A DNA stretch of 64,000 nt. It comes from Nymphaea colorata (taxonomy: Eukaryota; Streptophyta; Magnoliopsida; Nymphaeales; Nymphaeaceae). The notes below the pieces were generated by a model. That model saw only the letters and a list, made by a program, of their open reading frames with translations. It ran no database searches and was not told the origin of the DNA. Shown here in pieces: positions 13,015 through 39,067 of this stretch (position 1 is the first letter of the stretch; every line of letters begins with the position of its first letter). Position numbers and translations under genes: made by a program. The stretch lies in NCBI RefSeq assembly GCF_008831285.2, contig NC_045147.1, positions 14,300,854 to 14,364,853 of the forward strand, written 5' to 3'.

Positions 13015-13020
13015 ATGGAT
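12750..13020 (+). promoter_or_regulatory. Probable 5' leader region of the Yippee gene with (CT)n tract
   Basis: GC content rises here relative to the AT-rich upstream sequence. A pyrimidine-rich tract with (CT)n lies at about 12979-13011, typical of plant 5' UTRs. The Yippee coding start at 14234 is preceded by a splice acceptor (ACAG before 14193), so the leader is probably interrupted by an intron of about 1 kb and the first exon would lie here. The exact transcription start and donor cannot be set from sequence. Confidence 0.45.
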
Positions 13021-14233
13021 GCCGCAATTCGGTGTTTGCGTTGCTGAACTTTTTCCCCTTGTCCTCTGTAGTTTTGGTGTCTATTTAGTAAGAAAATCTA
13101 CAGTAACCCGACTCTTTGATCTTGAAATTGGAGTTCCCAAATGTATAAATTCTTGATGGGTCGCGTGCAATTCGGTGTTTCTAACTGAAATACGAAGGCG
13201 ATCCCCATTGGTTCTCAGTTTTGCATCTTCTTCCTTTGGTTTGAGTTCTTTCCTTGCCGATGAGGTTTCTTCCTGGATAAGGTATTGGGGCTTTCGATAC
13301 AAAGGGACAGCTTGGTGTGGCCGAATTTCTAGAGATATCTTGTGTTCGAGTAATTCCTTGTTTTGACTTTCCCTTGTTTCTTACTGTTCCTGCTAAGCTG
13401 TCTTTATCAGGATTACCTAATAAGAGGATTTTCTACCATATCTCTTCGGTGAAGGTTGTGCGGAAGTTATGCGCCTGGTGCATCTTCTTGATGAATAGAG
13501 ATATTTGGGCACTGTGATGGAAGAAACTGGGGGTGGGTGTTACGCCAGTGAAATGATTTATAAATGTCTGTATTTTAGCAATAACCTGAGATATGATGTT
13601 CCGCTTGTTGTTGCCACCTTGAAATTATTATAAATTTATGTTTTCTTAAGCGATAACCTGAGTTGTGATGTTCTGTTTGTTTGTTGGCATCTAGCAACTT
13701 TGCATTCTTTGGCAGGTTTGATCTAATTGCTGATTTTATTCAGGGTCGAAATATGTGTTATGAACTGCTTGGCGTCTTTTCATAATATGAATCTTTTGCG
13801 ATTAGTATAGCGTCAAGTAAACACGACACATGAAACTTAGGAAGAAATTATCGTGTCTGCTTGCTGTAATTAAAGATGAACTTCCTATTTTCTAGCTCAT
13901 ATGCTTTAGGCCAGGTTATTTATTAACGTCAAATGGTTGATGGATAAGAATAAAGCTCCTGATCTACGTCGTTTTTTTGTTTTATTATTTTATAAACTTG
14001 TTCGGTTTTGATGCCTTCTAAGCATGGTGTTTATTCTTTACACTCTGCTTATTTTTATTTTTAGTGCTGATGTTTTGGTTTCAGTATTCCTTCGGACATG
14101 GATTTGTTCTTGAATGGAAGTTAGCATGCTTGTCATGACTAAGTTTTAAACTTGTTTGGTTTCAATTTTACTTGATGATGTAGTGATCTTACAGAGTGAA
14201 GTAGCATCTGTTGAGCTGTACAAGACAGAACTG

Positions 14234-14784
14234 ATGGTTGAATCGGATGGACCACGACTATATAGTTGCTGCAATTGTCGGAATAATGTCTCTCTTCACG
14301 ACGATATCATATCGAAGGCATTTCAGGTGACTGCTTTTAGCCATTGCAGACTTTTTTGTGTCTTAGCATCTGACTTGTTTTTGGGGATCCCTCATAATGA
14401 CCTGCAACAGATTTCTCTTAGTTTACTTAGAAATTCTCTTCCTAGCTGCTTGCATTCTGTTTTGCTGAATTCAACTCAGCTACCAATTTTCCTCCAAATT
14501 TGCACTTTCATTCTATTTTCACCATAGTGTATTAATCGTGTCTGTAATCTGTCTAGGGAAGACATGGCAGAGCATTCCTCTTTGCTCATGCAATGAATGT
14601 AGTTTTAGGGCCAAAAGAGAATCGGCAGCTGATGACCGGTTTGCACACAGTTGCTGATGTTCATTGCTGTGAATGTCGGGAGATCTTGGGATGGAAGTAT
14701 GTAAGGGCTTATGAAGAAACACAAAAGTACAAAGAAGGAAAATACATATTGGAAAAGTTAAAGATTGTCAAGGAAAACTGGTAG
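14234..14784 (+). CDS. Yippee-like zinc-binding protein (intact copy)
   Basis: Two exons, 14234-14326 and 14557-14784, join in phase 0 to give 106 aa. The Yippee fold signature is complete: C12-x2-C15 and C68-x2-C71, separated by the family's 52 residues, with the conserved GLHTVAD and GWKY segments between and after. Length and the ending KIVKENW closely resemble Arabidopsis At4g27745. Yippee proteins are small conserved eukaryotic zinc-binding proteins; their structure resembles the cereblon thalidomide-binding domain, and the plant function is not settled. An upstream frame is open back to the acceptor before 14193, but the ATG at 14234 gives the family-typical N-terminus ([13 protein letters not shown]). 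This copy is intact; the one at 27414 is frameshifted. Confidence 0.93.
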
Positions 14785-16142
14785 CTCTTTCTGTTCTGCT
14801 TTGTGCTGATGTCTGCGACTTCTTTGGTGGTGCATCCAGATGTTCATCATGTACAGAAATCTTGATAGATGAAAATATTCAGCCATTGCTGATTGTGTAT
14901 CCTCTGTTGCTGCAGCCGGTGGTCTGTGTTCTGGATTCAAACTGCTATCTGTTTTATTCTTATTAGTCTTGTTCATTCATAAAGTCAACTGTATATAAGT
15001 GGAAGTTCCAAAACGAAGGATTTCTGTTGACAGTTCATCCTTCACTGAACTGGACATGAATTCAATGTGAACAGTGTGTACCTTCTTACATGGTGCTTGC
15101 ATATCTGAGAAAATGGTTTTAGATGTTTGTTATCGTTGCAGTCCACTTTATGATTCCCTCCTACTCTTGACTTGGAAATAAGCGAAGTGAAAGTCTTCTT
15201 GGAGACAACCGGTAAGTGTGAAATTATAGAGACAAGAATAGCGTGGAGCCCGTGCAAGGATGACACATAAATGACTAAGTGAAATTCTTGCAAAGACAAG
15301 TTACGTATTGAGGGGAGGCATAATTGCCATGCATGAAAATTCAGTGGTGTTTTGATGATGACCGCACAAGTTGTCTGTGGAGAAATGTAAGTGGCAATGT
15401 AGAGGCATTCTTTAACAAAATTGAAAATGCTAGAATGCCTGCAGGACAACCAGATCTTTGTTCTCTGTAAAGTACTTGGTGTTTGAATGTCTATGGAATG
15501 TTTACGTACTTTTTGAGGTATTGAGATCTGGTCACTGCTTGGACAATACATCTGTTGTGCCAATTGAAATCCATGGCGGCCTTATCTCTATTGACCTCGT
15601 GGGTATACTGGTAAGCTTTAAGGCAAAAATCACAGCTTAGTGACTAAATACCGGCAAACGATCGGATAAACTCGTGGGCAGTGGCAGTAGAGTGTTTATC
15701 CTATCAATCTTATGTAACTCTGCAGGTAAATCAAATGAGAGGTGGTTATTACCAGTGTATGGACAGACATAAATCGGATTTGAATACAGTACAAGCGTCA
15801 TTTTCAAGGTTGAAAAGACCGTCAGCAATCTCATTAGTTTGAGATGGGTCATTAAGATCGACCATTGAGTCACGCAAGCCCGCAAGTTGTCGTGGGGTCT
15901 TCAAAAATTGGTAGCCATCAAAATGGGATAACGTGGTGAGCACGATTCAAAGTGCCTTCTTATCAAATCATGTTGATCACTTTATGATTTTGACTAAAAT
16001 AAGTGAAGTTAAAAAGCCCATTATCCCATGGTCGGTAAAGCGGTTCATTTCAAAGGGATTTGGGTTACAAATTCTGCGATCGCTGTTATGATCTAGCCAT
16101 GCAACCGCGCCCGCCCGCGAGGATCGAGTGAAATTTCACGCA
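14785..16142. other. Yippee 3' flank and intergenic DNA
   Basis: The first several hundred bases probably include the Yippee 3' UTR (TTATTAG and ATAAAG words near 14955-14985). I see no further coding exon on either strand. The open frames on the minus strand are short and unrecognised. Confidence 0.4.
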
Positions 16143-16177
16143 AAAAAAAGTCGGCCCTGCCAGGGCCGACTTTTTTT
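16143..16177. repeat. Perfect hairpin: GC core with A7/T7 tails
   Basis: Perfect 17-bp inverted arms (A7 + GTCGGCCCTG and its complement) flank a single central C. The palindrome is nested in imperfect repeats of GAGTGAAATTTCAC / GGGTGAAAGTTCACCC on both sides. The shape resembles a bacterial intrinsic terminator but in this plant context it is more likely the core of a small fold-back element. The same structure is at 29321-29355 in the right copy. Confidence 0.85.
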
Positions 16178-16235
16178 CGGGTGAAAGTTCACCCGTCGTG
16201 GCCCTTACCCATCGACGACTTGCAAGGGCCGAAGC

Positions 16236-16490
16236 GGAGGGGACGAGTGAAATTGGAAGAGGGGGAATGGGAGGACGCAGAGGGGGAAGGGAGTAGCGGA
16301 GGGGGAAGCGACGACGGGTAAGGGAGAAGCGGAGGGGAGAAGAGGGGGAAGGGAGAAGCGGAGGGGGAAGAGGGAGAAGGGAGAAGAGGGGGAAGGGAGG
16401 AGCAGAGGGGGAAGGGGGCTGTCCACCGGACTACGCAGAGGGGGAACTGTCAGGGGGAAGGGAGAAGCAGAGCGGGAAGGTTGGAGAGGG
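16236..16490. repeat. G-rich purine minisatellite (GGGGGAAGGGAGAAGC-like)
   Basis: About 250 bases of repeats such as GAGGGGGAAGGGAGAAGCGG on the plus strand, with many runs of three to five G, giving G-quadruplex potential. Long open frames here (Pro/Ser/Leu-rich on the minus strand) are composition artefacts. The right copy at about 29410-29670 differs by several one-base run-length changes. Confidence 0.85.
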
Positions 16491-16699
16491 AAAGAAGAGA
16501 AATAAGGAATAAGGGAGACCGTGAGACCGTGATCTCTTGCAGTCATGGCCGTGGTAGAGAACGCCGGCGTGGACTTGGGGCGTTTGATTGTCATTGGCTG
16601 GCCGGAATTTTGGTGACAAAGTGTTTTTTCAGATTTCAACAGTCACTTAGAAAGTCTCTCATTCATTTTACCATGTGCATCAAACACAGTTAATTTTAG

Positions 16700-18421
16700 T
16701 TAATTTTACCTGCAAAAAACTTTCCTATAGATCCTCAAATCGAAGGTAGGTTAAGTTTCATCTTGTATTTTTTTTTAGAAAAATTTACCGTAGTAAATTT
16801 ACCACGTTAAATTTTTCCTTGCCATCAAACGAGCCTAAAGGAAAGAGAAAAAAAAATGTGAAGTTTTAGCTAGATTTCAACTAAAACATTTTTTTTTTCC
16901 TTTGTTGTATGTTCCAGATTTTGAAGAATGGCCCGGCGTATGATATACACACAAACCAAATAGAACCCAATTCGCTTTGCCAATGCATATATGTGGATCT
17001 TTGATGCTCTTCATTATCGTAATTTTTGGATAAGAAACAAGATGTAAGTCGTGTTATTTCATAAATAAAAGAGTATCATTAAGACTTTTGAAATATTACT
17101 GCCGGCTATGAGAACCTAAGCCCACTGATCTAAATCGGTAGATAAGCTAAACCAGTGGGATTTAATATTGCCAATTCAAAAGGATAATTGCGATCATGCT
17201 TTCTTTCAAAACTTGTTCTCCGTTTATTCATTTATTAGACGTTCTGATTTGGCTTTAGTCATATTTGGTAATGTTTATATATTAATACATACTCTTTAAA
17301 GCCCTGAGTTCTTTGGAACGCAATGTTCCAATAACAAAAGGGGAGTAAATCAAACATCGGGTGAAGAATGTGTTCCCTCTTTATGAAAGGGGAAATGAAC
17401 AGAAGGGAAATTTATGCCAACCCTTCCTCCCGCGCGCACGCTTGGTTCATGCTCCTCTCCGCCCTCATACCGCTTCATTCGCCAGGTTCTCTTTCTGTCG
17501 CTCAATCTGCCTCCCTCTCTCTCGCATGATGCCGCATGTCTCAGGGGTCTCTCTCTTTCTCTCTCTCTCTCTCTCGCCCCTAAACTCTCACAAGACTTCT
17601 CCATCAGTGCGACCGTGGAAATATCTGATGTGGATGTGTGGTGCATGCGGATTGAATGATCCATTTACATCTATTGTTTGTTTGCCTTCAGAGAATTGGA
17701 GAGCGTAATTTGCCTATTCGACCCGTCTTTCTCCGTCAAACTGTTGTGCTATATGTTACACGCTTACATCTTGTCTCCTAAACCGTAAATAATCTGAACT
17801 CTGCAACTGCTTAGGTTTCCCGATAACAGTAATGTGGTTAGTCTCTTACGCCTCGCTCCCTTGCCCTCGTCCTTTTAATTACTCAGATTCTGCTTTACGT
17901 TGCATAGGCAGAAGCTATGCCCTCAGAGCAATTTATTTTCGACTCTTGCATTCTGATTGTGGTTAATCTTGTTGCTTCCGCTTTTTCATGCATCTATTGA
18001 TCCAATTCTTGAAACTTGAAATTCGAGATACTTTGAGGATTTCACCATATGATGTTCTGAAAGGGATGATAGTTCTGTCCTTCTAGGCGAATGTCTCTAT
18101 ATGTCCGAAGTCGGTGTTTAACCCATCTTCACCAAACGTTCAAATAGTATTGAAACAAGTATAGTCACCGCAAGGGTTCCTTTCTCGAGGACATATTATT
18201 CTATTTGTTTCGCACTTGGATTTCAACCTCAATATACTAAAGGCATTTTCCATCTCTTGAATTGATTCTTCATTTTCTTTCTTCGGGTAAAATTTGTTGT
18301 GCATGGAACTTATTTATTTTTCAATTAGTTGCAATTACAGCATTTCACAATTGGACAGGTACGAGGATAGTTTGTAAGATATTATTGTAGTCAGCTCCAG
18401 TGGAACTGCTAAGTTCTTGAA
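16700..18421 (+). promoter_or_regulatory. Upstream region and probable 5' leader of RPC10
   Basis: The segment from about 17350 to 17700 is pyrimidine-rich, with a (CT)n tract at 17539-17575, as in plant 5' UTRs. An acceptor-like TTGGACAG ends at 18359, about 60 bp before the RPC10 ATG, implying a spliced leader. The short frames overlapping on both strands at 17350-17708 have low-complexity Ser/Leu or Arg/Glu stretches and are not convincing proteins. Confidence 0.35.
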
Positions 18422-19239
18422 ATGTTGTTCTGCCCAACCTGTGGCAACATGCTGCTAGTGCAGCGCCCGAACCTTGGTCAATCTTCAAGGTTCTTCTGCC
18501 CAACCTGTCCATATGCGTATCCTATAGAACGTGAGGTAAGTATCTCTGGGCTTCTTTCTTGCATTTGTTGTTATTGTTTCTGGTTACTATACCTACTTTG
18601 TTGTTTAACAGCACTATTATTTCATGATATTGCAGATTTCTGTCAAGCAAAAACTCAAAAAGAAAAAATTAGATTTAGTATTCAACTACGAAGAAGCCAT
18701 GAAAAATGCGAGCAAAAGTCAAGGTATCTTTCTGTTTCATAAGCACTTTCACTGCATTGAATGTCTATGACGACGAGTTCACGCTTGGATGAAGTGCACA
18801 TATCAATTGCAGTTTCCACCGCATTCAATCTTGACCATTGAGGTCTCTAGTAAACATCGCTAGCCAGTAGACCCCATAGGAAGCCTGGGTGGTATCTGAA
18901 AAAAAGCAATGAAATGACTGGTAGAAACTCAATAGCTAAATTGCCTGCAGTATTTAAAGTATACATGCTTCGCTCAAAGCGAATATTATAATTAAATGGC
19001 CATTTATGTAAAAATATTAAAATTTTTAACCGTTATTCATTGTCACAGAAATACAAGCACATGTAACAGTAAATTGATATAAGGCTTCAAATTAATCAAT
19101 ACCCCGTTAAGCAATGTACTTCAACAGTTGGCGATGAACAGGACATTTTAGATATATGCCATATATGCAACAGCTAGAAATTCCATATATTGCATCATGA
19201 GACAATACTAACGATATGGATGGAAATGAAGCTGAGGAT

Positions 19240-19274
<35 letters not shown>

Positions 19275-20934
19275 GAGAGAGAGAGAGAGATTACTGTATC
19301 AATTTACCTTAAAACCCATAGGGAACAAAATTTCAGGAGATAAAAGGATTCTTTCTTGACTGGGTACTTAATCAATGAATCAGCTAGGTGGTCTAATTGA
19401 TATCGGATAGGTACTGTTAGGGTCGTCCTAGTTAAAGACTGGGAATGATTAGGCCAACTAGTACCCATCTTGACAAAGCCAACTCGGATTAGCTGCATTA
19501 TTGAGGTGAATTGCAACAATCGCATTATTTACATCTCGAGACAATTGTATGATGTTTTGGAAAAAAAAAACATTCTCTTGCTCACATTTTTGCAATAAAA
19601 TTACCAGTAGAAATGACAATCATCTGTGTGAGGAAGAACAGAATGCAAAATTATGTTTTCAGATGAAAACGTGCTTTCTTCAGGAGCTTTTCACAAAGAT
19701 ACGTTGCAATGAAGAATTAAAAGATTCATTAGCATTTTATAACAAAATGTTTTGATATTTATCAAACTATCCTGGTAAAAAGTTAAAATTGACAATAGAT
19801 GAAACCATTTATTTTACTATGAAGAACGGTTGGAATGTTTCACTTGTACACTTTGTTGATGTCTAACCAAACGAATGTTACAAAGGTTATAAATGAAGTT
19901 GTGCGCCGATGGACCTCTCCTCCAGCATTTCCAAATGGAAGTTGTTATTCCACTGTTTCTCTTCAAGCCAGATTCTTTATGGTTCGTATTAGTCAAACAG
20001 ATAAATAAAAATGAAATAACACATTATGCAGCACTTATTGTCTGCAAAGCTTTTTTTCCGAACTGATTGACTTCCAGTAGAAACTACAGTCCTAATTGGA
20101 ATCCTACAAAGATTAAGCTTGTGTTACCTTGTGGACTAAGATACCTGAACGATTGGTTTCCGTATAGCTTAGGAGTAATGGCTACGGGTGGACTTGGTCA
20201 AATTTAGATCGACTAACCTGTCAAGGCCATAAACCCATGGCCTCCTGGAAACTGTCAAATGCTGAGTTGTATGCCTCTAAGTTTGATGAGGTGAATGTCT
20301 AATGTCAAGGAAAGTTTTTCTAATCATCTCATGACTGGTGTGTTTATTCTATGTTGAAACTTTAAATGGTATTTTCATTTATCATGTTTTAACCATCTAG
20401 AGGTTGATCGGCATTTATGAGTTTGGTGAACTTCATTTAAATTCTGAGTTGTCCTGTAAGGCCTTCTTTCAATGGCAATCAAAGACTTCAGTGGCTGACG
20501 TCGAAAAGTTTTCCTCATTTGAACTGAAATGTTCTGTCATTTGTGATCTCGTGCTTTTTTCTTTGTTTTATCTCCAGGAGTTGAAATACGCCTTTTAAGC
20601 TATGAACACCCCTGCTGAGAAATATGTCCTGAATATTGTATGGTTATGTTGATCTAATGATAATGTGGGATGGGTGAAAGTTTCTCTTGCAGTATCAAAT
20701 GGTCTTCAATACTCTTAAAAGTCCCTGCATATCTGTCATGAAAGCATTCCTTTTTTCATCTTATCTTCATGTTATGATAGAATTATTGCAAGTTTTTCAT
20801 TTCATTTTCATTCATAAGTTTCCATTTACTATGATTTCTTTCTCATAAAAACATATGCCAGTGGAGATTTCCAAGAACAAAGTTGATTTTCTTTTTTTTG
20901 TCGATGCTGCACCCAAGTGTTAATTTATCCTATT

Positions 20935-20973
<39 letters not shown>

Positions 20974-21481
20974 TGTTTGCTTGAGGCACTGAGTGGTGGA
21001 TTGGTAGGAAGTCCTGGTTGAAGAAGAGAGGTCAATTTGCCCCTAAAACATATGGTACTTACTGGGTCCTAAGGAGCTCAAAAATTTTAATGGAATAATC
21101 TGAGATGCGGCTGAAATGACAGGATAGATTTCTCCATTTTGCATTGGATCATCATGTGTGGCCTGACACAAAACTCAGACAATGCGTTACTAGTACTTTT
21201 CAATAAAACAGGCAAAACATTTTTGCTTTACTGTTGGCTCGATTTCCCGTGTAAAAACAATATTAGAAGAATTGTCCATGTTTTACAGTGAACAACTAGG
21301 GATGTTTTTTACCAGTTTCACCAATTGTTTTTTCTTTACTCATGCAGAAACCTGCCCACGATGTGGTCATGGGGAAGCATACAGTTATGACATGCAGACG
21401 CGATCTGCTGATGAAGGTGCAACAATTTTTTTCACATGCTGCAATAGATCGTGTGGGCACCAATGGCAACACTTCAATTAA
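18422..21481 (+). CDS. RPC10: DNA-directed RNA polymerase III subunit C11 / RPC10 (POLR3K homologue)
   Basis: Three exons (18422-18535, 18636-18723, 21348-21481) join in frame to give 111 aa, near the ~108 aa usual for the family. The N-terminal zinc ribbon has C4-x2-C7 and C26-x2-C29. The C-terminal TFIIS-like ribbon has C70-x2-C73 and C98-x4-C103, and carries the RSADE loop at 86-90 whose Asp-Glu pair drives transcript cleavage. In other eukaryotes this subunit provides RNA cleavage, proofreading and termination/reinitiation for Pol III (tRNA and 5S rRNA genes) in the nucleus. It is distinguished from Pol II RPB9 by its start MLFCPTCGNML and by the CCNRSCGHQW ending. Intron 2 is long (2.6 kb) and contains two microsatellites. 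The second copy is at 31602-34660. Confidence 0.95.
19237..19291. repeat. (CA)n-(GA)n compound microsatellite in RPC10 intron 2
   Basis: A CA-dinucleotide run is followed by TAGAGAGAGAG. It lies inside intron 2 of the RPC10 gene. The copy in the right duplicate (about 32417-32470) has the same length, which would be surprising for two old, independently evolving loci. Confidence 0.9.
20935..20969. repeat. (GA)n microsatellite in RPC10 intron 2
   Basis: An uninterrupted GA run of about 15 units lies in intron 2. The right-copy counterpart is at about 34116-34149. Confidence 0.9.
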
Positions 21482-23161
21482 CCTAGTCTGTCAAGCCAGA
21501 GAGGGTTTGTCAAGAATTGACAGCAAGCATTTCCATCATTTTTGCATGGTTATTTAGCTTGCTAGCTCCTTATCTTTGAAGTTTGGGTAGTAACCTGCTC
21601 TTAAGCTTCTCTGTGTTCTACTCCCTTGAGTTCGGTGTCTGCTTGACTGTTAGTTTCCAGGCTATATTAGGCACTTTTCGCCATGCAGACATTCGTCTCC
21701 TTGTTGTTCTTGCTTTTTTCTTTACATTGTTTCCTCAGATGGTTCCCAATCAAAACAGGATGAAAAAATAGGACTGCTGTTTGGTGAAATATAGATATGA
21801 CTTAGGAGAGTTGAACTTTATTAAAACTATGGTTTAAAAAAAAAAACAGAAAACAAAGAAATCCTTTCGGTTTACTTTATCATTCTATGATTGGTGGTGT
21901 ATGGAGATTCTTCTCTCTATTATGCGCTCGCCAACAAGATCTCAGAACACCTGGTTAAGGGATTGACTTAACGCCTTCAAAATTTGGGAGCTGAAAAGTT
22001 ACGTACATATGAACATCCATCATATGGTTGGTGTAAATCCATTTGCAGTTTAAGTTGACCTTAAGTAAGCTTCCTAATGTTAGGTTGTGTTTGCAGAATT
22101 AAGCTTTGTTCCTGGCAACCCCAGTATATATGTTCGCCACACTAAAGCCTGTATCGATTAATGAAGAACGATATTTGTGTAGTTGGGGGTTTCTTTGATG
22201 GGGTTGTCTATAATACCTGCCTTGAAATAGCATGGAACTTGAGAACATTGGGTGGATTTCATTGTCCCAACGGTCGGTATTTTTTAAGATTGTTATTTCA
22301 GTATTTTATTTTCTTTATATATTATTTGCTCAAATTTTAAGGATCCCTTCTCTCCTTGATGAATATTTTCGTTCAAGGTTCTCTCTCTTTCGACGATAAT
22401 TGCAGTACTCTGATTTCTCCGGGGGGGTCCTCACTTTTGCTGAGAACTGCCAAACGAAAGTTGAGATTAAACGAAACTTTATACTTGTTATAATCCTTCA
22501 GCTTTTAATTTTAACATTTTTGGCAAAACGCGTATATCGGGCAAATGAGAAAAATGAGGCCTTGTTATGATTACTGACAAAAGTTGCTTCCTGATTCGAA
22601 TTTCTCTAGAAAACCCTGCGACTTGAATCTGGCGTCTCCCTCGTTGTGAAGAGGAATTTTAAACTTTAACGGCAATGGTTGTTTATGTTTCCGCTGTTTG
22701 GTTTGCGTGGCGCGTTAACTTTTTTTACAACTTGAAATGCATGAATCTAATTTTTTCGAGCACGTGTCGATTGATAGTTCAAGCACTGACTGAACAACAC
22801 TATCTTTTGCCGAGAAGAGTTCGATTGACCTGCCAAGACGTGCTCCTAAGTCCTTGAATCTGATGGAGGTGAAGAGATTAAAACCAGCACTCTTTCTTGC
22901 TCTTAACTTTATACAGAGATAGGAAGGGGAGTCCAGGAGTCCTCTTAACTAGTCAGCAGCACAATCAAGCACATCATGACTGCTTGCTTGAGAATCTTCT
23001 GAGAAAACTCTTTAATTCATCATGATATTTCCCCACACAGAGAAAGTTGATAAAGAAAATCAAGACGTTGCTCGAACGGAACAAGTTTATTTTCGAGCAA
23101 ATGATCAAAGACATTCCTCGAAAATTAAGGGAAACAATGATCAATGTCAAGCTAATTAGCG
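21482..23161. other. Convergent 3' flanks of RPC10 and WNK
   Basis: RPC10 (plus) and WNK (minus) end tail-to-tail. The segment should hold both 3' UTRs. No additional coding exon is recognised. A run of seven G at about 22420 is six G in the right copy. Confidence 0.4.
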
Positions 23162-25423
23162 TCAAGCAGCTGGCTGTTTATTCTTTGTGGCCCACCGCTT
23201 CCTAGCCTCCTCAAGTGCTTCATCACGCTGCCTCGAGAGTTCCTGAAACCATTGCTGGTACTGCTGGCTAATCAAATCAAATTCCGCTTTCAACTCCTCA
23301 TCCTCGTCTTCCTCCAAAGACGATGAGGCATAGCTCCGGGTGTTCGCAATATCAGCAAAATCGTTTAAATTACAGACTGACAAATCTAAATTTGCCACAT
23401 CTGCGACGTTGTTTTCCCTCGTTTCAGGAACCAAATCAACAACATTAGAACATTCAGTTGAGACCCCAGAGGCAACTGACTCAAGGGATTCCTGGTCCGC
23501 TGCAGCAGCAGAACTTGAAGGGGAATCAAATCCACCATGGGACATGGCATCGTCTGGTTTTGTAAATGCACCATCCTCATGCTGCCGCTTTATGGAACCC
23601 TCCACAGAACTCAGATCAATGCAATAATTCTCCAAATCTGACCCAGACAGGACATCTTCTATGCCTTTGACAGCACTGCTTCCATGTACTCCATCCCATG
23701 AATAACCAACGGAGAACCGAGCATGCTCCGGCACCTTAGATTCTGTCCGGACACAGTTTGTTCCATTTTCTGAGGGGGGAACGGAAGGTTCCCACTCAGG
23801 TATTAGTTTCATTATCAGGAAATCAATGAACTCTGCAATAAATGTGACATCTTGATCAGAGAGATCTAGCTGCTCCACCATCTCACTGGCCACCGAAAGT
23901 GCCGTGTCACTGTCAAGGTAAAACATAAAATGCACATTCTTCACACGACCTACAACAAAAGATATCTTGTCATTACGAAGCTATGGCTATAATTGAAACA
24001 ACCAAGGCCCAAGGATTGTCTAATGTAACTGACGTGCAAATTCAGTTAATTAATCTTCCCACCCATTATATCAGATCATCACTTACCATCAGGGCCAGCA
24101 ATCCTCAGAACTAGAGATATAGAATTAGCATCAGTTTGTCTCCCTTCAACCTGAACGAATAGTTCTTTTTGGACCTCTCGTATTCCAAGCTTGGAAAGCA
24201 GTGGGTATTTATGCTGTTCCTCGAATTAGTGCTCATAGATGACTGCTTGTAGTCATAATCTATGTCCATTGATAATGGTCCAGACTTCACCTGAGTAACA
24301 GAAGCCGCATCAGAGTGCACAGACGAACCTTCCAAGTTTGAGGTTTGGGGCACTAAAGTGGGTAATTGCAGAGAGTTGCAGGCTTGCTCTTTTAAATCAA
24401 TGTGCTGAAGAAATTGATATTTCAAAAGCTCCCTTGCAGAAGGCCTTTCCGATGCTGGGGCTAGACATTTCTCAATAAGCAACTTTACTTCAGGATCATT
24501 AACCATGTCTAAGGCTGCAGGTTTGATCCCCTGAAAGGGAAATAATGGATGAATAGCAATACCAGACATAATAAGATCAATTTAACCTAACACATCAGCA
24601 AGCTTACAGAAGAGACTTTCTTATAAATCTGGGCTGGGTTCTTGCATTCACTGTAAGGGTACTCAAATGTGACCATCTCCAATAAGCACATGCCGAAGGA
24701 ATATATGTCAACAAGTTCGTTGTACTCTTCTTCATAAAGCTCTGGAGCCATGAACTCAGGAGTCCCTAAGGTAAAGAGAGTTGGATAGCAGTAAAGATTG
24801 ACAAAAACCAAAATCAAAATATCAACCCACAAACAATTCAAGTTATTAGTTACCAATCACGCTTCGGGCACTAGGCTGCTGCATAATAGTTGCTAATCCA
24901 AGATCTCCGATCTTTACTTGCCCATGATTTCCATTAACGAAAATGTTATCACATTTCAAATCTCTGTGAATAATGGGTGGATTATGCCCATGAAGATATT
25001 GCAGTCCACGAAGAATCTGTCTGGCCCAGTTCTTTACAGCCTTCATGTCCACCTTTTTATGTTTCAGACGGTACCTAATATTATTTGAAAATTTATTTCA
25101 CTGCCATATCTACAAAGATCTCAAAGTATACCACAAAAATTAAGAATTTCATGATAAGTCATGAAACAATAATTGAAAGGGGTGACTCCAACTTACTTTC
25201 TTAGACTCCCAGACGTAAACAACTCCGTAATTATGTTGATGGTCTTCTTCTGCTCATCGACCCATGAACTAAAAATTTGATAATGTTATCGTGTTTAAGC
25301 GATTTCAGCAAATGCACTTCCGAATACAATCTCTCTAAATCTTCAGGCGACCGTAAGACATCGCCCATTTTGACTTGGTTCCATGCCACTTCTATCCCAT
25401 CTACTTCATCAAATGACCTGTAT
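23162..25423 (-). pseudogene. WNK kinase, left copy: 5'-truncated and frameshifted
   Basis: Exons corresponding to exons 3-7 of the intact copy: 25423-25197, 25074-24854, 24765-24608, 24530-24087 and 23949-23162. Relative to the intact copy at 36344-39067, exon 3 lacks one A in the run before the SSWVDE codons. Exon 6 lacks one T, converting GDKTDANS into a different reading frame that stops soon after. Exons 1 and 2 are absent because the sequence turns into its own inverse at 25510. Both frame breaks are one-base losses in homopolymers near a contig end, so I read this as an assembly-damaged copy of a functional gene, not an evolved pseudogene. Confidence 0.9.
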
Positions 25424-26871: not shown

Positions 26872-26971
26872 NNNNNNNNNNNNNNNNNNNNNNNNNNNNN
26901 NNNNNNNNNNNNNNNNNNNNNNNNNNNNNNNNNNNNNNNNNNNNNNNNNNNNNNNNNNNNNNNNNNNNNNN
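26872..26971. other. Assembly gap of exactly 100 N
   Basis: One hundred consecutive N, the customary placeholder for a scaffold join of unknown size. The left flank is the palindrome arm. The right flank restarts at sequence already seen at 13795. Confidence 0.99.
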
Positions 26972-27413
26972 TTTGCGATTAGTATAGCGTCAAGTAAACA
27001 CGACACATGAAACTTAGGAAGAAATTATCGTGTCTGCTTGCTGTAATTAAAGATGAACTTCCTATTTTCTAGCTCATATGCTTTAGGCCAGGTTATTTAT
27101 AACGTCAAATGGTTGATGGATAAGAATAAAGCTCCTGATCTACGTCGTTTTTTTTGTTTTTATTATTTTATAAACTTGTTCGGTTTTGATGCCTTCTAAG
27201 CATGGTGTTTATTCTTTACACTCTGCTTATTTTTATTTTTAGTGCTGATGTTTTGGTTTCAGTATTCCTTCGGACATGGATTTGTTTCTTGAATGGAAGT
27301 TAGCATGCTTGTCATGACTAAGTTTTAAACTTGTTTGGTTTCAATTTTACTTGATGATGTAGTGATCTTACAGAGTGAAGTAGCATCTGTTGAGCCTGTA
27401 CAAGACAGAACTG

Positions 27414-27963
27414 ATGGTTGAATCGGATGGACCACGACTATATAGTTGCTGCAATTGTCGGAATAATGTCTCTCTTCACGACGATATCATATCGAAGGCA
27501 TTTCAGGTGACTGCTTTTAGCCATTGCAGACTTTTTTGTGTCTTAGCATCTGACTTGTTTTTGGGGATCCCTCATAATGACCTGCAAACAGATTTCTCTT
27601 AGTTTACTTAGAAATTCTCTTCCTAGCTGCTTGCATTCTGTTTTGCTGAATTCAACTCAGCTACCAATTTTCCTCCAAATTTGCACTTTCATTCTATTTC
27701 ACCATAGTGTATTAATCGTGTCTGTAATCTGTCTAGGGAAGACATGGCAGAGCATTCCTCTTTGCTCATGCAATGAATGTAGTTTTAGGGCCAAAAGAGA
27801 ACGGCAGCTGATGACCGGTTTTGCACACAGTTGCTGATGTTCATTGCTGTGAATGTCGGGAGATCTTGGGATGGAAGTATGTAAGGGCTTATGAAGAAAC
27901 ACAAAAGTACAAAGAAGGAAATACATATTGGAAAAGTTAAAGATTGTCAAGGAAAACTGGTAG
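27414..27963 (+). pseudogene. Yippee-like protein, right copy, frameshifted
   Basis: Exon 1 (27414-27506) is identical in coding sense to the left copy. Exon 2 (27737-27963) loses one T in GAGAATCGG, which creates an early stop shortly after GPKEN. It then gains one T in ACCGGTTTTGC and loses an A in GAAGGAAAATAC. One-base indels of this kind within 1 kb of a gap point to unpolished sequence and not to selection-free decay. The intact version is at 14234-14784. Confidence 0.9.
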
Positions 27964-29320
27964 CTCTTTCTGTTCTGCTTTGTGCTGATGTCTGCGACTT
28001 CTTTGGTGGTGCATCCAGATGTTCATCATGTACAGAAATCTTGATAGATGAAAATATTCAGCCATTGCTGATTGTGTATCCTCTGTTGCTGCAGCCGGTG
28101 GTCTGTGTTCTGGATTCAAACTGCTATCTGTTTTATTCTTATTAGTCTTGTTCATTCATAAAGTTCAACTGTATATAAGTGGAAGTTCCAAAACGAAGGA
28201 TTTCTGTTGACAGTTCATCCTTCACTGAACTGGACATGAATTCAATGTGAACAGTGTGTACCTTCTTACATGGTGCTTGCATATCTGAGAAAATGGTTTT
28301 AGATGTTTGTTATCGTTGCAGTCCACTTTATGATTCCCTCCTACTCTTGACTTGGAAATAAGCGAAGTGAAAGTCTTCTTGGAGACAACCGGTAAGTGTG
28401 AAATTATAGAGACAAGAATAGCGTGGAGCCCGTGCAAGGATGACACATAAATGACTAAGTGAAATTCTTGCAAAGACAAGTTACGTATTGAGGGAGGCAT
28501 AATTGCCATGCATGAAAATTCAGTGGTGTTTTGATGATGACCGCACAAGTTGTCTGTGGAGAAATGTAAGTGGCAATGTAGAGGCATTCTTTAACAAATA
28601 TTGAAAATGCTAGAATGCCTGCAGGACAACCAGATCTTTGTTCTCTGTAAAGTACTTGGTGTTGAATGTCTATGGAATGTTTACGTACTTTTTGAGGTAT
28701 TGAGATCTGGTCACTGCTTGGACAATACATCTGTTGTGCCAATTGAAATCCATGGCGGCCTTATCTCTATTGACCTCGTGGGTATACTGGTAAGCTTTAA
28801 GGCAAAAATCACAGCTTAGTGACTAAATACCGGCAAACGATCGGATAAACTCGTGGGCAGTGGCAGTAGAGTGTTATCCTATCAATCTTATGTAACTCTG
28901 CAGGTAAATCAAATGAGAGGTGGTTATTACCAGTGTATGGACAGACATAAATCGGATTTGAATACAGTACAAGCGTCATTTTCAAGGTTGAAAAGACCGT
29001 CAGCAATCTCATTAGTTTGAGATGGGTCATTAAGATCGACCATTGAGTCACGCAAGCCCGCAAGTTGTCGTGGGGTCTTCAAAAATTGGTAGCCATCAAA
29101 ATGGGATAACGTGGTGAGCACGATTCAAAGTGCCTTCTTATCAAATCATGTTGATCACTTTATGATTTTGACTAAAATAAGTGAAGTTAAAAAGCCCATT
29201 ATCCCATGGTCGGTAAAGCGGTTCATTTCAAAGGGATTTGGGTTACAAATTCTGCGATCGCTGTTATGATCTAGCCATGCAACCGCGCCCGCCCGCGAGG
29301 ATCGAGTGAAATTTCACGCA

Positions 29321-29355
29321 AAAAAAAGTCGGCCCTGCCAGGGCCGACTTTTTTT
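29321..29355. repeat. Perfect hairpin (right copy)
   Basis: Second occurrence of the 17-bp-arm palindrome with A7/T7 tails described at 16143-16177; the core is identical. The G-rich minisatellite that follows it extends to about 29670. Confidence 0.85.
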
Positions 29356-31601
29356 CGGGTGAAAGTTCACCCGTCGTGGCCCTTACCCATCGACGACTTG
29401 CAAGGGCCGAAGCGGAGGGGGACGAGTGAAATTGGAAGAGGGGGAATGGGAGGACGCAGAGGGGGAAGGGAGTAGCGGAGGGGGAAGCGACGACGGGTAA
29501 GGGAGAAGCGGAGGGGAGAAGAGGGGAAGGGAGAAGCGGAGGGGGGAAGAGGGAGAAGGGAGAAGAGGGGGAAGGGAGGAGCAGAGGGGGAAGGGGGCTG
29601 TCCACCGGACTACGCAGAGGGGGAACTGTCAGGGGAAGGGAGAAGCAGAGCGGGAAGGTTGGAGAGGGAAAGAAGAGAAATAAGGAATAAGGGAGACCGT
29701 GAGACCGTGATCTCTTGCAGTCATGGCCGTGGTAGAGAACGCCGGCGTGGACTTGGGGCGTTTGATTGTCATTGGCTGGCCGGAATTTTGGTGACAAAGT
29801 GTTTTTTTCAGATTTCAACAGTCACTTAGAAAGTCTCTCATTCATTTTACCATGTGCATCAAAACACAGTTAATTTTAGTTAATTTTACCTGCAAAAAAA
29901 CTTTCCTATAGATCCTCAAATCGAAGGTAGGTTAAGTTTCATCTTGTATTTTTTTTTAGAAAATTTACCGTAGTAAATTTACCACGTTAAATTTTTCCTT
30001 GCCATCAAACGAGCCTAAAGGAAAGAGAAAAAAAAATGTGAAGTTTTAGCTAGATTTCAACTAAAAACATTTTTTTTTTCCTTTGTTGTATGTTCCAGAT
30101 TTTGAAGAATGGCCCGGCGTATGATATACACACAAACCAAATAGAACCCAATTCGCTTTGCCAATGCATATATGTGGATCTTTGATGCTCTTCATTATCG
30201 TAATTTTTGGATAAGAAACAAGATGTAAGTCGTGTTATTTCATAAATAAAAGAGTATCATTAAGACTTTTGAAATATTACTGCCGGCTATGAGAACCTAA
30301 GCCCACTGATCTAAATCGGTAGATAAGCTAAACCAGTGGGATTTAATATTGCCAATTCAAAAGGATAATTGCGATCATGCTTTCTTTCAAAACTTGTTCT
30401 CCGTTTATTCATTTATTAGACGTTCTGATTTGGCTTTAGTCATATTTGGTAATGTTATATATTAATACATACTCTTTAAAGCCCTGAGTTCTTTGGAACG
30501 CAATGTTCCAATAACAAAAGGGGAGTAAATCAAACATCGGGTGAAGAATGTGTTCCCTCTTTATGAAAGGGGAAATGAACAGAAGGGAAATTTATGCCAA
30601 CCCTTCCTCCCGCGCGCACGCTTGGTTCATGCTCCTCTCCGCCCTCATACCGCTTCATTCGCCAGGTTCTCTTTCTGTCGCTCAATCTGCCTCCCTCTCT
30701 CTCGCATGATGCCGCATGTCTCAGGGGTCTCTCTCTTTCTCTCTCTCTCTCTCTCGCCCCTAAACTCTCACAAGACTTCTCCATCAGTGCGACCGTGGAA
30801 ATATCTGATGTGGATGTGTGGTGCATGCGGATTGAATGATCCATTTACATCTATTGTTTGTTTGCCTTCAGAGAATTGGAGAGCGTAATTTGCCTATTCG
30901 ACCCGTCTTTCTCCGTCAAACTGTTGTGCTATATGTTACACGCTTACATCTTGTCTCCTAAACCGTAAATAATCTGAACTCTGCAACTGCTTAGGTTTCC
31001 CGATAACAGTAATGTGGTTAGTCTCTTACGCCTCGCTCCCTTGCCCTCGTCCTTTTAATTACTCAGATTCTGCTTTACGTTGCATAGGCAGAAGCTATGC
31101 CCTCAGAGCAATTTATTTTCGACTCTTGCATTCTGATTGTGGTTAATCTTGTTGCTTCCGCTTTTTCATGCATCTATTGATCCAATTCTTGAAACTTGAA
31201 ATTCGAGATACTTTGAGGATTTCACCATATGATGTTCTGAAAGGGATGATAGTTCTGTCCTTCTAGGCGAATGTCTCTATATGTCCGAAGTCGGTGTTTA
31301 ACCCATCTTCACCAAACGTTCAAATAGTATTGAAACAAGTATAGTCACCGCAAGGGTTCCTTTCTCGAGGACATATTATTCTATTTGTTTCGCACTTGGA
31401 TTTCAACCTCAATATACTAAAGGCATTTTCCATCTCTTGAATTGATTCTTCATTTTCTTTCTTCGGGTAAAATTTGTTGTGCATGGAACTTATTTATTTT
31501 TCAATTAGTTGCAATTACAGCATTTCACAATTGGACAGGTACGAGGATAGTTTGTAAGATATTATTGTAGTCAGCTCCAGTGGAACTGCTAAGTTCTTGA
31601 A

Positions 31602-32419
31602 ATGTTGTTCTGCCCAACCTGTGGCAACATGCTGCTAGTGCAGCGCCCGAACCTTGGTCAATCTTCAAGGTTCTTCTGCCCAACCTGTCCATATGCGTAT
31701 CCTATAGAACGTGAGGTAAGTATCTCTGGGCTTCTTTCTTGCATTTGTTGTTATTGTTTCTGGTTACTATACCTACTTTGTTGTTTAACAGCACTATTAT
31801 TTCATGATATTGCAGATTTCTGTCAAGCAAAAACTCAAAAAGAAAAAATTAGATTTAGTATTCAACTACGAAGAAGCCATGAAAAATGCGAGCAAAAGTC
31901 AAGGTATCTTTCTGTTTCATAAGCACTTTCACTGCATTGAATGTCTATGACGACGAGTTCACGCTTGGATGAAGTGCACATATCAATTGCAGTTTCCACC
32001 GCATTCAATCTTGACCATTGAGGTCTCTAGTAAACATCGCTAGCCAGTAGACCCCATAGGAAGCCTGGGTGGTATCTGAAAAAAAGCAATGAAATGACTG
32101 GTAGAAACTCAATAGCTAAATTGCCTGCAGTATTTAAAGTATACATGCTTCGCTCAAAGCGAATATTATAATTAAATGGCCATTTATGTAAAAATATTAA
32201 AATTTTTAACCGTTATTCATTGTCACAGAAATACAAGCACATGTAACAGTAAATTGATATAAGGCTTCAAATTAATCAATACCCCGTTAAGCAATGTACT
32301 TCAACAGTTGGCGATGAACAGGACATTTTAGATATATGCCATATATGCAACAGCTAGAAATTCCATATATTGCATCATGAGACAATACTAACGATATGGA
32401 TGGAAATGAAGCTGAGGAT

Positions 32420-32454
<35 letters not shown>

Positions 32455-34113
32455 GAGAGAGAGAGAGAGATTACTGTATCAATTTACCTTAAAACCCATA
32501 GGGAACAAAATTTCAGGAGATAAAAGGATTCTTTCTTGACTGGGTACTTAATCAATGAATCAGCTAGGTGGTCTAATTGATATCGGATAGGTACTGTTAG
32601 GGTCGTCCTAGTTAAAGACTGGGAATGATTAGGCCAACTAGTACCCATCTTGACAAAGCCAACTCGGATTAGCTGCATTATTGAGGTGAATTGCAACAAT
32701 CGCATTATTTACATCTCGAGACAATTGTATGATGTTTTGGAAAAAAAAAACATTCTCTTGCTCACATTTTTGCAATAAAATTACCAGTAGAAATGACAAT
32801 CATCTGTGTGAGGAAGAACAGAATGCAAAATTATGTTTTCAGATGAAAACGTGCTTTCTTCAGGAGCTTTTCACAAAGATACGTTGCAATGAAGAATTAA
32901 AAGATTCATTAGCATTTTATAACAAAATGTTTTGATATTTATCAAACTATCCTGGTAAAAAGTTAAAATTGACAATAGATGAAACCATTTATTTTACTAT
33001 GAAGAACGGTTGGAATGTTTCACTTGTACACTTTGTTGATGTCTAACCAAACGAATGTTACAAAGGTTATAAATGAAGTTGTGCGCCGATGGACCTCTCC
33101 TCCAGCATTTCCAAATGGAAGTTGTTATTCCACTGTTTCTCTTCAAGCCAGATTCTTTATGGTTCGTATTAGTCAAACAGATAAATAAAAATGAAATAAC
33201 ACATTATGCAGCACTTATTGTCTGCAAAGCTTTTTTTCCGAACTGATTGACTTCCAGTAGAAACTACAGTCCTAATTGGAATCCTACAAAGATTAAGCTT
33301 GTGTTACCTTGTGGACTAAGATACCTGAACGATTGGTTTCCGTATAGCTTAGGAGTAATGGCTACGGGTGGACTTGGTCAAATTTAGATCGACTAACCTG
33401 TCAAGGCCATAAACCCATGGCCTCCTGGAAACTGTCAAATGCTGAGTTGTATGCCTCTAAGTTTGATGAGGTGAATGTCTAATGTCAAGGAAAGTTTTTC
33501 TAATCATCTCATGACTGGTGTGTTTATTCTATGTTGAAACTTTAAATGGTATTTTCATTTATCATGTTTTAACCATCTAGAGGTTGATCGGCATTTATGA
33601 GTTTGGTGAACTTCATTTAAATTCTGAGTTGTCCTGTAAGGCCTTCTTTCAATGGCAATCAAAGACTTCAGTGGCTGACGTCGAAAAGTTTTCCTCATTT
33701 GAACTGAAATGTTCTGTCATTTGTGATCTCGTGCTTTTTTCTTTGTTTTATCTCCAGGAGTTGAAATACGCCTTTTAAGCTATGAACACCCTGCTGAGAA
33801 ATATGTCCTGAATATTGTATGGTTATGTTGATCTAATGATAATGTGGGATGGGTGAAAGTTTCTCTTGCAGTATCAAATGGTCTTCAATACTCTTAAAAG
33901 TCCCTGCATATCTGTCATGAAAGCATTCCTTTTTTCATCTTATCTTCATGTTATGATAGAATTATTGCAAGTTTTTCATTTCATTTTCATTCATAAGTTT
34001 CCATTTACTATGATTTCTTTCTCATAAAAACATATGCCAGTGGAGATTTCCAAGAACAAAGTTGATTTTCTTTTTTTTGTCGATGCTGCACCCAAGTGTT
34101 AATTTATCCTATT

Positions 34114-34152
<39 letters not shown>

Positions 34153-34660
34153 TGTTTGCTTGAGGCACTGAGTGGTGGATTGGTAGGAAGTCCTGGTTGA
34201 AGAAGAGAGGTCAATTTGCCCCTAAAACATATGGTACTTACTGGGTCCTAAGGAGCTCAAAAATTTTAATGGAATAATCTGAGATGCGGCTGAAATGACA
34301 GGATAGATTTCTCCATTTTGCATTGGATCATCATGTGTGGCCTGACACAAAACTCAGACAATGCGTTACTAGTACTTTTCAATAAAACAGGCAAAACATT
34401 TTTGCTTTACTGTTGGCTCGATTTCCCGTGTAAAAACAATATTAGAAGAATTGTCCATGTTTTACAGTGAACAACTAGGGATGTTTTTTACCAGTTTCAC
34501 CAATTGTTTTTTCTTTACTCATGCAGAAACCTGCCCACGATGTGGTCATGGGGAAGCATACAGTTATGACATGCAGACGCGATCTGCTGATGAAGGTGCA
34601 ACAATTTTTTTCACATGCTGCAATAGATCGTGTGGGCACCAATGGCAACACTTCAATTAA
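31602..34660 (+). CDS. RPC10: RNA polymerase III subunit C11 / RPC10 (second copy)
   Basis: Exons 31602-31715, 31816-31903 and 34527-34660 encode the same 111-aa protein as 18422-21481. Coding sequence and both introns appear identical apart from a single missing C in intron 2 (ACACCCCTG versus ACACCCTG). Near-complete intron identity, including equal microsatellite lengths, argues that this is the same locus represented twice. If a real duplication, it would be extremely recent. Upstream sequence from 28000 to 31600 duplicates the Yippee 3' flank and RPC10 leader region. Confidence 0.93.
32417..32470. repeat. (CA)n-(GA)n microsatellite (right copy)
   Basis: Counterpart of 19237-19291, same repeat structure and length, in intron 2 of the second RPC10 copy. 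Confidence 0.9.
34116..34149. repeat. (GA)n microsatellite (right copy)
   Basis: Counterpart of the GA run at 20935-20969. Confidence 0.9.
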
Positions 34661-36343
34661 CCTAGTCTGTCAAGCCAGAGAGGGTTTGTCAAGAATTGAC
34701 AGCAAGCATTTCCATCATTTTTGCATGGTTATTTAGCTTGCTAGCTCCTTATCTTTGAAGTTTGGGTAGTAACCTGCTCTTAAGCTTCTCTGTGTTCTAC
34801 TCCCTTGAGTTCGGTGTCTGCTTGACTGTTAGTTTCCAGGCTATATTAGGCACTTTTCGCCATGCAGACATTCGTCTCCTTGTTGTTCTTGCTTTTTTCT
34901 TTACATTGTTTCCTCAGATGGTTCCCAATCAAAACAGGATGAAAAAATAGGACTGCTGTTTTGGTGAAATATAGATATGACTTAGGAGAGTTGAACTTTA
35001 TTAAAACTATGGTTTAAAAAAAAAAACAGAAAACAAAGAAATCCTTTCGGTTTACTTTATCATTCTATGATTGGTGGTGTATGGAGATTCTTCTCTCTAT
35101 TATGCGCTCGCCAACAAGATCTCAGAACACCTGGTTAAGGGATTGACTTAACGCCTTCAAAATTTGGGAGCTGAAAAGTTACGTACATATGAACATCCAT
35201 CATATGGTTGGTGTAAATCCATTTGCAGTTTAAGTTGACCTTAAGTAAGCTTCCTAATGTTAGGTTGTGTTTGCAGAATTAAGCTTTGTTCCTGGCAACC
35301 CCAGTATATATGTTCGCCACACTAAAGCCTGTATCGATTAATGAAGAACGATATTTGTGTAGTTGGGGGTTTCTTTGATGGGGTTGTCTATAATACCTGC
35401 CTTGAAATAGCATGGAACTTGAGAACATTGGGTGGATTTCATTGTCCCAACGGTCGGTATTTTTTAAGATTGTTATTTCAGTATTTTATTTTCTTTATAT
35501 ATTATTTGCTCAAATTTTAAGGATCCCTTCTCTCCTTGATGAATATTTTCGTTCAAGGTTCTCTCTCTTTCGACGATAATTGCAGTACTCTGATTTCTCC
35601 GGGGGGTCCTCACTTTTGCTGAGAACTGCCAAACGAAAGTTGAGATTAAACGAAACTTTATACTTGTTATAATCCTTCAGCTTTTAATTTTAACATTTTT
35701 GGCAAAACGCGTATATCGGGCAAATGAGAAAAATGAGGCCTTGTTATGATTACTGACAAAAGTTGCTTCCTGATTCGAATTTCTCTAGAAAACCCTGCGA
35801 CTTGAATCTGGCGTCTCCCTCGTTTGTGAAGAGGAATTTTAAACTTTAACGGCAATGGTTGTTTATGTTTCCGCTGTTTGGTTTGCGTGGCGCGTTAACT
35901 TTTTTTACAACTTGAAATGCATGAATCTAATTTTTTCGAGCACGTGTCGATTGATAGTTCAAGCACTGACTGAACAACACTATCTTTTGCCGAGAAGAGT
36001 TCGATTGACCTGCCAAGACGTGCTCCTAAGTCCTTGAATCTGATGGAGGTGAAGAGATTAAAACCAGCACTCTTTCTTGCTCTTAACTTTATACAGAGAT
36101 AGGAAGGGGAGTCCAGGAGTCCTCTTAACTAGTCAGCAGCACAATCAAGCACATCATGACTGCTTGCTTGAGAATCTTCTGAGAAAACTCTTTAATTCAT
36201 CATGATATTTCCCCACACAGAGAAAAGTTGATAAAGAAAATCAAGACGTTGCTCGAAACGGAACAAGTTTATTTTCGAGCAAATGATCAAAGACATTCCT
36301 CGAAAATTAAGGGAAACAATGATCAATGTCAAGCTAATTAGCG

Positions 36344-39067
36344 TCAAGCAGCTGGCTGTTTATTCTTTGTGGCCCACCGCTTCCTAGCCTCCTCAAGTGC
36401 TTCATCACGCTGCCTCGAGAGTTCCTGAAACCATTGCTGGTACTGCTGGCTAATCAAATCAAATTCCGCTTTCAACTCCTCATCCTCGTCTTCCTCCAAA
36501 GACGATGAGGCATAGCTCCGGGTGTTCGCAATATCAGCAAAATCGTTTAAATTACAGACTGACAAATCTAAATTTGCCACATCTGCGACGTTGTTTTCCC
36601 TCGTTTCAGGAACCAAATCAACAACATTAGAACATTCAGTTGAGACCCCAGAGGCAACTGACTCAAGGGATTCCTGGTCCGCTGCAGCAGCAGAACTTGA
36701 AGGGGAATCAAATCCACCATGGGACATGGCATCGTCTGGTTTTGTAAATGCACCATCCTCATGCTGCCGCTTTATGGAACCCTCCACAGAACTCAGATCA
36801 ATGCAATAATTCTCCAAATCTGACCCAGACAGGACATCTTCTATGCCTTTGACAGCACTGCTTCCATGTACTCCATCCCATGAATAACCAACGGAGAACC
36901 GAGCATGCTCCGGCACCTTAGATTCTGTCCGGACACAGTTTGTTCCATTTTCTGAGGGGGGAACGGAAGGTTCCCACTCAGGTATTAGTTTCATTATCAG
37001 GAAATCAATGAACTCTGCAATAAATGTGACATCTTGATCAGAGAGATCTAGCTGCTCCACCATCTCACTGGCCACCGAAAGTGCCGTGTCACTGTCAAGG
37101 TAAAACATAAAATGCACATTCTTCACACGACCTACAACAAAAGATTATCTTGTCATTACGAAGCTATGGCTATAATTGAAACAACCCAAGGCCCAAGGAT
37201 TGTCTAATGTAACTGACGTGCAAATTCAGTTAATTAATCTTCCCACCCATTATATCAGATCATCACTTACCATCAGGGCCAGCAATCCTCAGAACTAGAG
37301 ATATAGAATTAGCATCAGTTTTGTCTCCCTTCAACCTGAACGAATAGTTCTTTTTGGACCTCTCGTATTCCAAGCTTGGAAAGCAGTGGGTATTTATGCT
37401 GTTCCTCGAATTAGTGCTCATAGATGACTGCTTGTAGTCATAATCTATGTCCATTGATAATGGTCCAGACTTCACCTGAGTAACAGAAGCCGCATCAGAG
37501 TGCACAGACGAACCTTCCAAGTTTGAGGTTTGGGGCACTAAAGTGGGTAATTGCAGAGAGTTGCAGGCTTGCTCTTTTAAATCAATGTGCTGAAGAAATT
37601 GATATTTCAAAAGCTCCCTTGCAGAAGGCCTTTCCGATGCTGGGGCTAGACATTTCTCAATAAGCAACTTTACTTCAGGATCATTAACCATGTCTAAGGC
37701 TGCAGGTTTGATCCCCTGAAAGGGAAATAATGGATGAATAGCAATACCAGACATAATAAGATCAATTTAACCTAACACATCAGCAAGCTTACAGAAGAGA
37801 CTTTCTTATAAATCTGGGCTGGGTTCTTGCATTCACTGTAAGGGTACTCAAATGTGACCATCTCCAATAAGCACATGCCGAAGGAATATATGTCAACAAG
37901 TTCGTTGTACTCTTCTTCATAAAGCTCTGGAGCCATGAACTCAGGAGTCCCTAAGGTAAAGAGAGTTGGATAGCAGTAAAGATTGACAAAAACCAAAATC
38001 AAAATATCAACCCACAAACAATTCAAGTTATTAGTTACCAATCACGCTTCGGGCACTAGGCTGCTGCATAATAGTTGCTAATCCAAGATCTCCGATCTTT
38101 ACTTGCCCATGATTTCCATTAACGAAAATGTTATCACATTTCAAATCTCTGTGAATAATGGGTGGATTATGCCCATGAAGATATTGCAGTCCACGAAGAA
38201 TCTGTCTGGCCCAGTTCTTTACAGCCTTCATGTCCACCTTTTTATGTTTCAGACGGTACCTAATATTATTTGAAAATTTATTTCACTGCCATATCTACAA
38301 AGATCTCAAAGTATACCACAAAAAATTAAGAATTTCATGATAAGTCATGAAACAATAATTGAAAGGGGTGACTCCAACTTACTTTCTTAGACTCCCAGAC
38401 GTAAACAACTCCGTAATTATGTTGATGGTCTTCTTCTGCTCATCGACCCATGAACTAAAAAATTTGATAATGTTATCGTGTTTAAGCGATTTCAGCAAAT
38501 GCACTTCCGAATACAATCTCTCTAAATCTTCAGGCGACCGTAAGACATCGCCCATTTTGACTTGGTTCCATGCCACTTCTATCCCATCTACTTCATCAAA
38601 TGACCTGTATCTGGATAGACAAGGTTAAGAGGCCCAATCCCAACTCTCTTTGTTCTTCACCTTCAAATTTGGATAAACGATGGAAAGAAAAAATGGAAAT
38701 TTTGAAGGATACACAGTCTTGAATGCTCCCTTACCCAAAACTTCCGTATACTGATAACAACCATACAAGATCGCAATCAAATAAATGCTAATGCAAATAT
38801 CATAAGATATAAGCTATGAACAAATAATACAACAATAGATTCAATTATTTGAGGGAGAAAAAAAGAACCTCCATCAAAAATCAGTCTGAGAATCCTATAA
38901 ACATAAAACGAATTTTCGATCATCTTTTCACAGATGAGAATGAGGCCATTCCCATTGTCGACAGAACTCACCCGGATGTATCGACCACTAGGGTCCGTTT
39001 CCGCAATCTCCAAATCAGGCAGCTCTGATTCGCCGGAACACCGGTCTCCGGTCGGCGAGCCGTTCAT
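36344..39067 (-). CDS. WNK-family serine/threonine kinase (intact copy), WNK8/WNK10-like
   Basis: Seven exons (39067-38972, 38750-38713, 38610-38383, 38259-38039, 37950-37793, 37715-37271, 37131-36344) join in frame to 657 aa. WNK hallmarks: the glycine loop carries the displaced catalytic lysine (K43 in GKGAFKTVY), and the usual VAIK lysine is Asn (N60 in VAWNQV). The catalytic loop is HRDLKCDN (D159), the metal motif is DLG (178-180), and the activation segment ends [12 protein letters not shown]. An OSR1-type C-terminal module follows (RLKGDK...VLRIAGPDG...FYLDSDTA). The C-terminus is a charged coiled-coil-like segment ([20 protein letters not shown]). Kinase sequence resembles Arabidopsis WNK8, whose clade acts in V-ATPase, sugar and flowering signalling. 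The start at 39067 follows an acceptor-like TTTTTTAG; an in-frame ATG at 39154 would add 29 residues. Confidence 0.93.

Follow-up and report, generated by a model that had tools for sequence, protein, structure and literature searches.

A gene-bearing direct repeat across a scaffold gap in Nymphaea colorata is very probably an unmerged contig overlap whose left contig ends in a foldback

Does a repeat that carries genes on either side of an assembly gap record a real gain of those genes or a failure to merge two contig ends? The question arises in a stretch of 64,000 nucleotides from Nymphaea colorata (NC_045147.1, positions 14,300,854 to 14,364,853 of the forward strand; hereinafter the window), in which the initial annotation had pointed to a direct duplication across a 100-N gap. 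A blastn comparison of the window against itself recovered this duplication as a plus/plus match of 13795-25516 with 26972-38704, with 99.68% identity over 11,746 alignment columns. The ends given earlier for the two copies, 25510 and 38698, proved exact, being the final bases before the sole substitution between the copies (25511/38699), and the intronic microsatellites held to be equal in length are the same in both (AC ×14.5 at 19242-19270 and 32422-32450; GA ×17.5 at 20938-20972 and 34117-34151). We use copy A for the end of the left contig, copy B for the start of the right contig, and copy C for an inverted piece that lies between A and the gap (Table 1). Taking the evidence together, we think it very probable that two contigs of the same allele, overlapping by ~11.7 kb, were set end to end with a 100-N join and left unmerged, the left contig ending in a foldback chimera of ~1.36 kb.

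Table 1. Coordinates of the features discussed, in positions of the window.
Feature	Positions	Strand	Details
Copy A, left-contig end to foldback junction	13795-25510	+	Yippee, RPC10/POLR3K-type and WNK exons; blastn self-comparison and event list
Yippee C-terminal exon, intact in A	14557-14784	+	Pfam 3e-08; B counterpart at ~27737-27985 frameshifted by 3 indels
RPC10/POLR3K-type exons, copy A	18413-21481	+	Zn_ribbon_RPB9 at 18413-18742, Zn_ribbon_TFIIS at 21194-21481 (Pfam)
Foldback junction	25507-25516	+	GGAA common to both arms, then the sole A/G substitution (25511), then TTTTG
Copy C, foldback flush with the gap, holding an inverted WNK fragment	25507-26871	-	Reverse complement of 37378-38745
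100-N scaffold gap	26872-26971	.	Sole N run in the window; blastn self-comparison
Copy B, right-contig start, overlapping copy A	26972-38704	+	blastn self-comparison and event list
WNK kinase exons, open in B	37263-38813	-	A counterparts at 25231-25437 and 24111-24581 frameshifted
Imperfect inverted repeat GGAAATTTTG ... CAAAACTTCC at the foldback turn	38695-38745	+	9 of 10 pairs, one A.C mismatch, 31 nt between the arms

The two direct copies are arranged as a dovetail: the first base of the right contig aligns within the left contig, and the true end of the left contig lies within the right. Copy B starts with the first base 3′ of the N run, and copy C stops with the last base before it. Over the aligned columns, A and B are distinguished by 37 single-base indels and one substitution. 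When each indel is scored in the longer copy, 35 of the 37 fall in runs of at least 2 bases and 31 in runs of at least 3, against expectations for random single-base deletions/insertions of 49%/45% and 22%/19%, respectively. Their positions are non-uniform (KS p = 2e-5): 25 are concentrated in 13795-17274, the counterpart of the right contig's initial ~3.5 kb, 4 occur in the 5.7 kb between 17274 and 23000, and 8 lie between 23043 and the point where A ends, with A being the shorter copy in every one of these 8. Among the first 25, B is longer in 14 and A in 11, and it is within the Yippee exon alone that the question of which copy errs in these 3.5 kb is settled. Homopolymer length errors that crowd toward contig ends are expected of a thinly covered long-read consensus; alleles or older duplicates are expected to show substitutions.

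A purine-rich minisatellite (16231-16418 in A) has three single-G indels relative to its counterpart in B. It is adjoined by a palindrome of ~68 bp at 16125-16195 (29303-29373 in the second copy), which is present in both copies, is 88% identical to its own reverse complement, and is centered on AAAAAAAAGTCGGCCCTGCCAGGGCCGACTTTTTTT.

A further clue, absent from the initial annotation, is the inverted third copy. The region 25507-26871 matches 38745-37378 on the minus strand with 99.78% identity, no mismatches and 3 single-base indels (blastn), and the larger interval 24193-26871 matches its own reverse complement with 98.8% identity (10 mismatches and 18 gaps over 2,690 columns). The left contig turns back on itself for ~1.36 kb and ends at the gap. 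As 25507-26871 is an inverted third copy, there is no unique sequence between A and the gap, and because copy C is the foldback of the left contig, the 'third WNK gene' is a mirror-image fragment. The count of two Yippee, two RPC10 and three WNK genes obtained at face value most likely reduces to one Yippee, one RPC10-type and one WNK gene, as had been proposed. Copy B reads straight past the turn point into further sequence, including an ORF on the minus strand (38625-38813) with the kinase glycine loop; this uninterrupted passage through the turn point argues for an artifact. In the region common to all three copies there are six indels, of which three are private to A, three to C and none to B, and one of the three indels between C and B lies outside any homopolymer.

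The gene content reported earlier is supported by Pfam for Yippee, for an RPC10/POLR3K-type subunit and for a protein kinase; for the last of these, WNK1/WNK3 rank top in a search of PDB sequences with one kinase exon, occupying the top 15 of the 50 rows listed. These Pfam searches covered 1-13794 and 40000-64000 in six frames, 26972-40471 in two of the three minus frames, and chosen ORFs in the rest of the window. The Yippee exon of A is open for 75 codons and matches Yippee-Mis18 (3e-08), and that of B alternates between two frames because of its 3 indels. With stops read as X, A scores 3.7e-08, while the best of the three B frames reaches 6e-05, below the cut-off, and the other two have no match; by this reading all three indels would be wrong in B. 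The exons with the Zn_ribbon_RPB9 and Zn_ribbon_TFIIS domains, those of the RPC10/POLR3K-type RNA polymerase III subunit, have the same translations in B (31593-31922 and 34373-34660) as in A.

The WNK exons are damaged the other way round. The exon with the FDEVDG motif keeps an open frame in both B and C and is frameshifted in A. In B and C it matches Pkinase at 2.7e-06 (27.4 bits, below the cut-off of 31.7) and PK_Tyr_Ser-Thr at 3.2e-06 (27.1 bits, above the cut-off of 23.1); with stops read as X, the Pfam match is 2e-06 in both, and none of the three A frames matches a kinase. In a further WNK exon, an indel at 24135 cuts the A version short and the B version is open; since neither version matches Pfam, the judgment that B is correct here rests on the general WNK sequence pattern. 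Copy C has frameshifts of its own in the kinase exon that follows, for which A and B agree. The C-terminal part of WNK gives a sub-threshold Pfam match to OSR1_C. Across the tested exons the damage is reciprocal: each contig is damaged close to its terminus and intact in the exons that are damaged in the other. The unmerged overlap proposed by the initial annotation is thereby supported on several sides, namely by the dovetail geometry, by the kind of difference (37 of 38 are indels of a single base, which cluster near the beginning of the right contig and for the most part affect homopolymers), and by frames broken reciprocally.

The turn point itself has a distinctive structure. Copy A ends on GGAA (38695-38698 in B), and the inverted arm opens with GGAA, the complement of TTCC at 38742-38745; the 43 bases in between (38699-38741) are confined to the inverted arm, making the turn asymmetric. 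The predicted minimum-energy DNA fold of 63 bases at this site includes the 10-nt GGAAATTTTG ... CAAAACTTCC stem; given its composition, this junction hairpin is of ordinary stability (z -1.33, equaled by 18 of 200 shuffles). A stem with at least 9 of 10 pairs and a loop of up to 60 nt is possible at 56 of 12,929 sites in 26972-40000 (0.43%, which serves as a guide only because the stem criteria were chosen after the junction was seen), and the four terminal pairs by themselves can form at 3,086 of these sites (24%). The sole A/B substitution falls at the foldback junction, at the mismatch of the stem, and carries the base of the other arm, as predicted if a 3′ end had snapped back and been extended by copying. 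Most likely, during library preparation or amplification, a 3′ DNA end would have snapped back on this short imperfect inverted repeat (38695-38745) and would have been extended by copying its own strand, after which the assembler may have followed the chimeric molecule into a dead end. We infer an in vitro origin for the foldback, and such a chimera at the end of the left contig may be what kept the overlap from being merged.

Comparable artifacts have been described for both parts of this picture. In homotype false duplications, the copies have a gap between them and their differences are sequencing errors (PMC9516828). The locus resembles these in that near-identical copies on one scaffold are separated by a gap, with B flush with the N run, in that the differences are of the sequencing-error type with none that is haplotype-specific, and in that the result can be misread as gene gains (PMC9516828); it differs in that a foldback at the contig end adds an inverted partial copy, and in that the class is assigned here from the assembly sequence alone. 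Long-read foldback artifacts, for which the authors consider library preparation the most likely source, likewise run forward and then back across the same place on the opposite strand (PMC12870357). Here too the same locus lies on both strands back to back, with C adjoining A through 4 shared bases, but in an assembled contig end rather than in reads, and the turn, located at a short inverted repeat, has an asymmetry of 43 nt. Whole-genome amplification has also been described as giving rise to palindromic chimeras detrimental to assembly (PMC6218980); as in the present case, these contain artificial inverted repeats that complicate de novo assembly, although nothing here indicates an amplified sample.

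An alternative origin of the palindrome concerns a sub-question of the contig-overlap explanation, in that it keeps the same overlap and derives the inverted arm from a PacBio read whose SMRTbell adapter was missed, instead of from a snap-back. We regard this as unlikely: no 14-mer of the adapter occurs in the window on either strand, and the 43 bases at 38699-38741 are absent from one of the two arms, which join at a common GGAA with no untemplated base. In its favor, missed SMRTbell adapters are a named cause of palindromic reads (PMC6218980). Turning to readings that dispense with an overlap of one allele, A and B might each represent one haplotype of a diploid, set one after the other, i.e., a heterotype false duplication. 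The high identity of A and B and their separation by a gap are compatible with this, and in five of the six vertebrate assemblies tabulated in one study, heterotype cases make up the greater share of false duplications (PMC9516828). Against it, the 11.7 kb, most of it non-coding, contain no allelic substitution at all; the changes are single-base and mostly of run length, as would be seen only in a plant that is very inbred or homozygous in this region. In the absence of allelic substitutions we rejected the two-haplotype reading, which we consider highly improbable.

The copies could also be real, as the product of a very recent complex A-C-B rearrangement through microhomology-mediated template switching, with the gap falling at the right-hand junction by chance. 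The order of the copies, with 4 bases (GGAA) common at the A/C junction, resembles duplication/inverted-triplication events, which have been described in other genomes, and near identity is compatible with a very young event. Yet such an event would have to be squared with the absence of any substitution outside the junction in 11.7 kb as against 37 homopolymer-type single-base indels, with genes broken reciprocally toward the contig ends, and with the end of C and the start of B both being flush with the N run, which requires the gap to sit exactly at the other junction; we give it very little credence. Very improbable, too, is the variant in which the homopolymer errors at the gap were superimposed on a real and very young direct-inverted-direct rearrangement around Yippee, RPC10 and WNK, primed by snap-back at the 10-nt imperfect inverted repeat. 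A plain tandem duplication would be marked by independent substitutions and by a junction inside a contig; the left edge of B is a contig end, and the sole substitution sits at the foldback junction, which counts against a true tandem duplication even though a brand-new one would lack substitutions too. We rejected this candidate on the substitution count, the type of the differences, the flush gap and the reciprocal frame damage. The type of the indels, the foldback and the reciprocal frame damage fit overlapping contig ends of one allele, and not a tandem duplication or, probably, two haplotypes.

If the contig-overlap explanation holds, an annotation taken at face value would, beyond inflating the gene count, list 'pseudogene' copies with frameshifts and an inverted WNK neighbor that is false. 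From this one case, we suggest as a practical aid in checking assemblies that a contig merge blocked by a foldback may be recognizable by a self-palindrome that abuts a gap, beyond which the sequence preceding the palindrome recurs in direct orientation.

Several minor features were recorded elsewhere in the window, in which ARAGORN and Rfam (at the gathering threshold) gave no matches. Just left of the start of the overlap at 13795, a 72-bp unit is repeated approximately twice (13549-13686; 80% matches), and further into the left flank there is a small tandem array (6245-6352) consisting of a 75-base direct repeat with a 33-base offset and 96% identity. The CT microsatellite at 12970-13020 and the GA microsatellite at 20927-20981 (34106-34160) give mutual inverted-repeat matches that reflect simple-sequence similarity only. 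To the right of the overlap lie two further loci which, with the Yippee, RPC10-type and WNK genes, suggest a land plant from gene content: a pentatricopeptide-repeat gene on the minus strand, with its best stretches at 43845-44534 (PPR_2, 4e-56), and exons for a fucose pyrophosphorylase and a GHMP kinase on the plus strand at 56926-62653, resembling the plant fusion enzyme FKGP.
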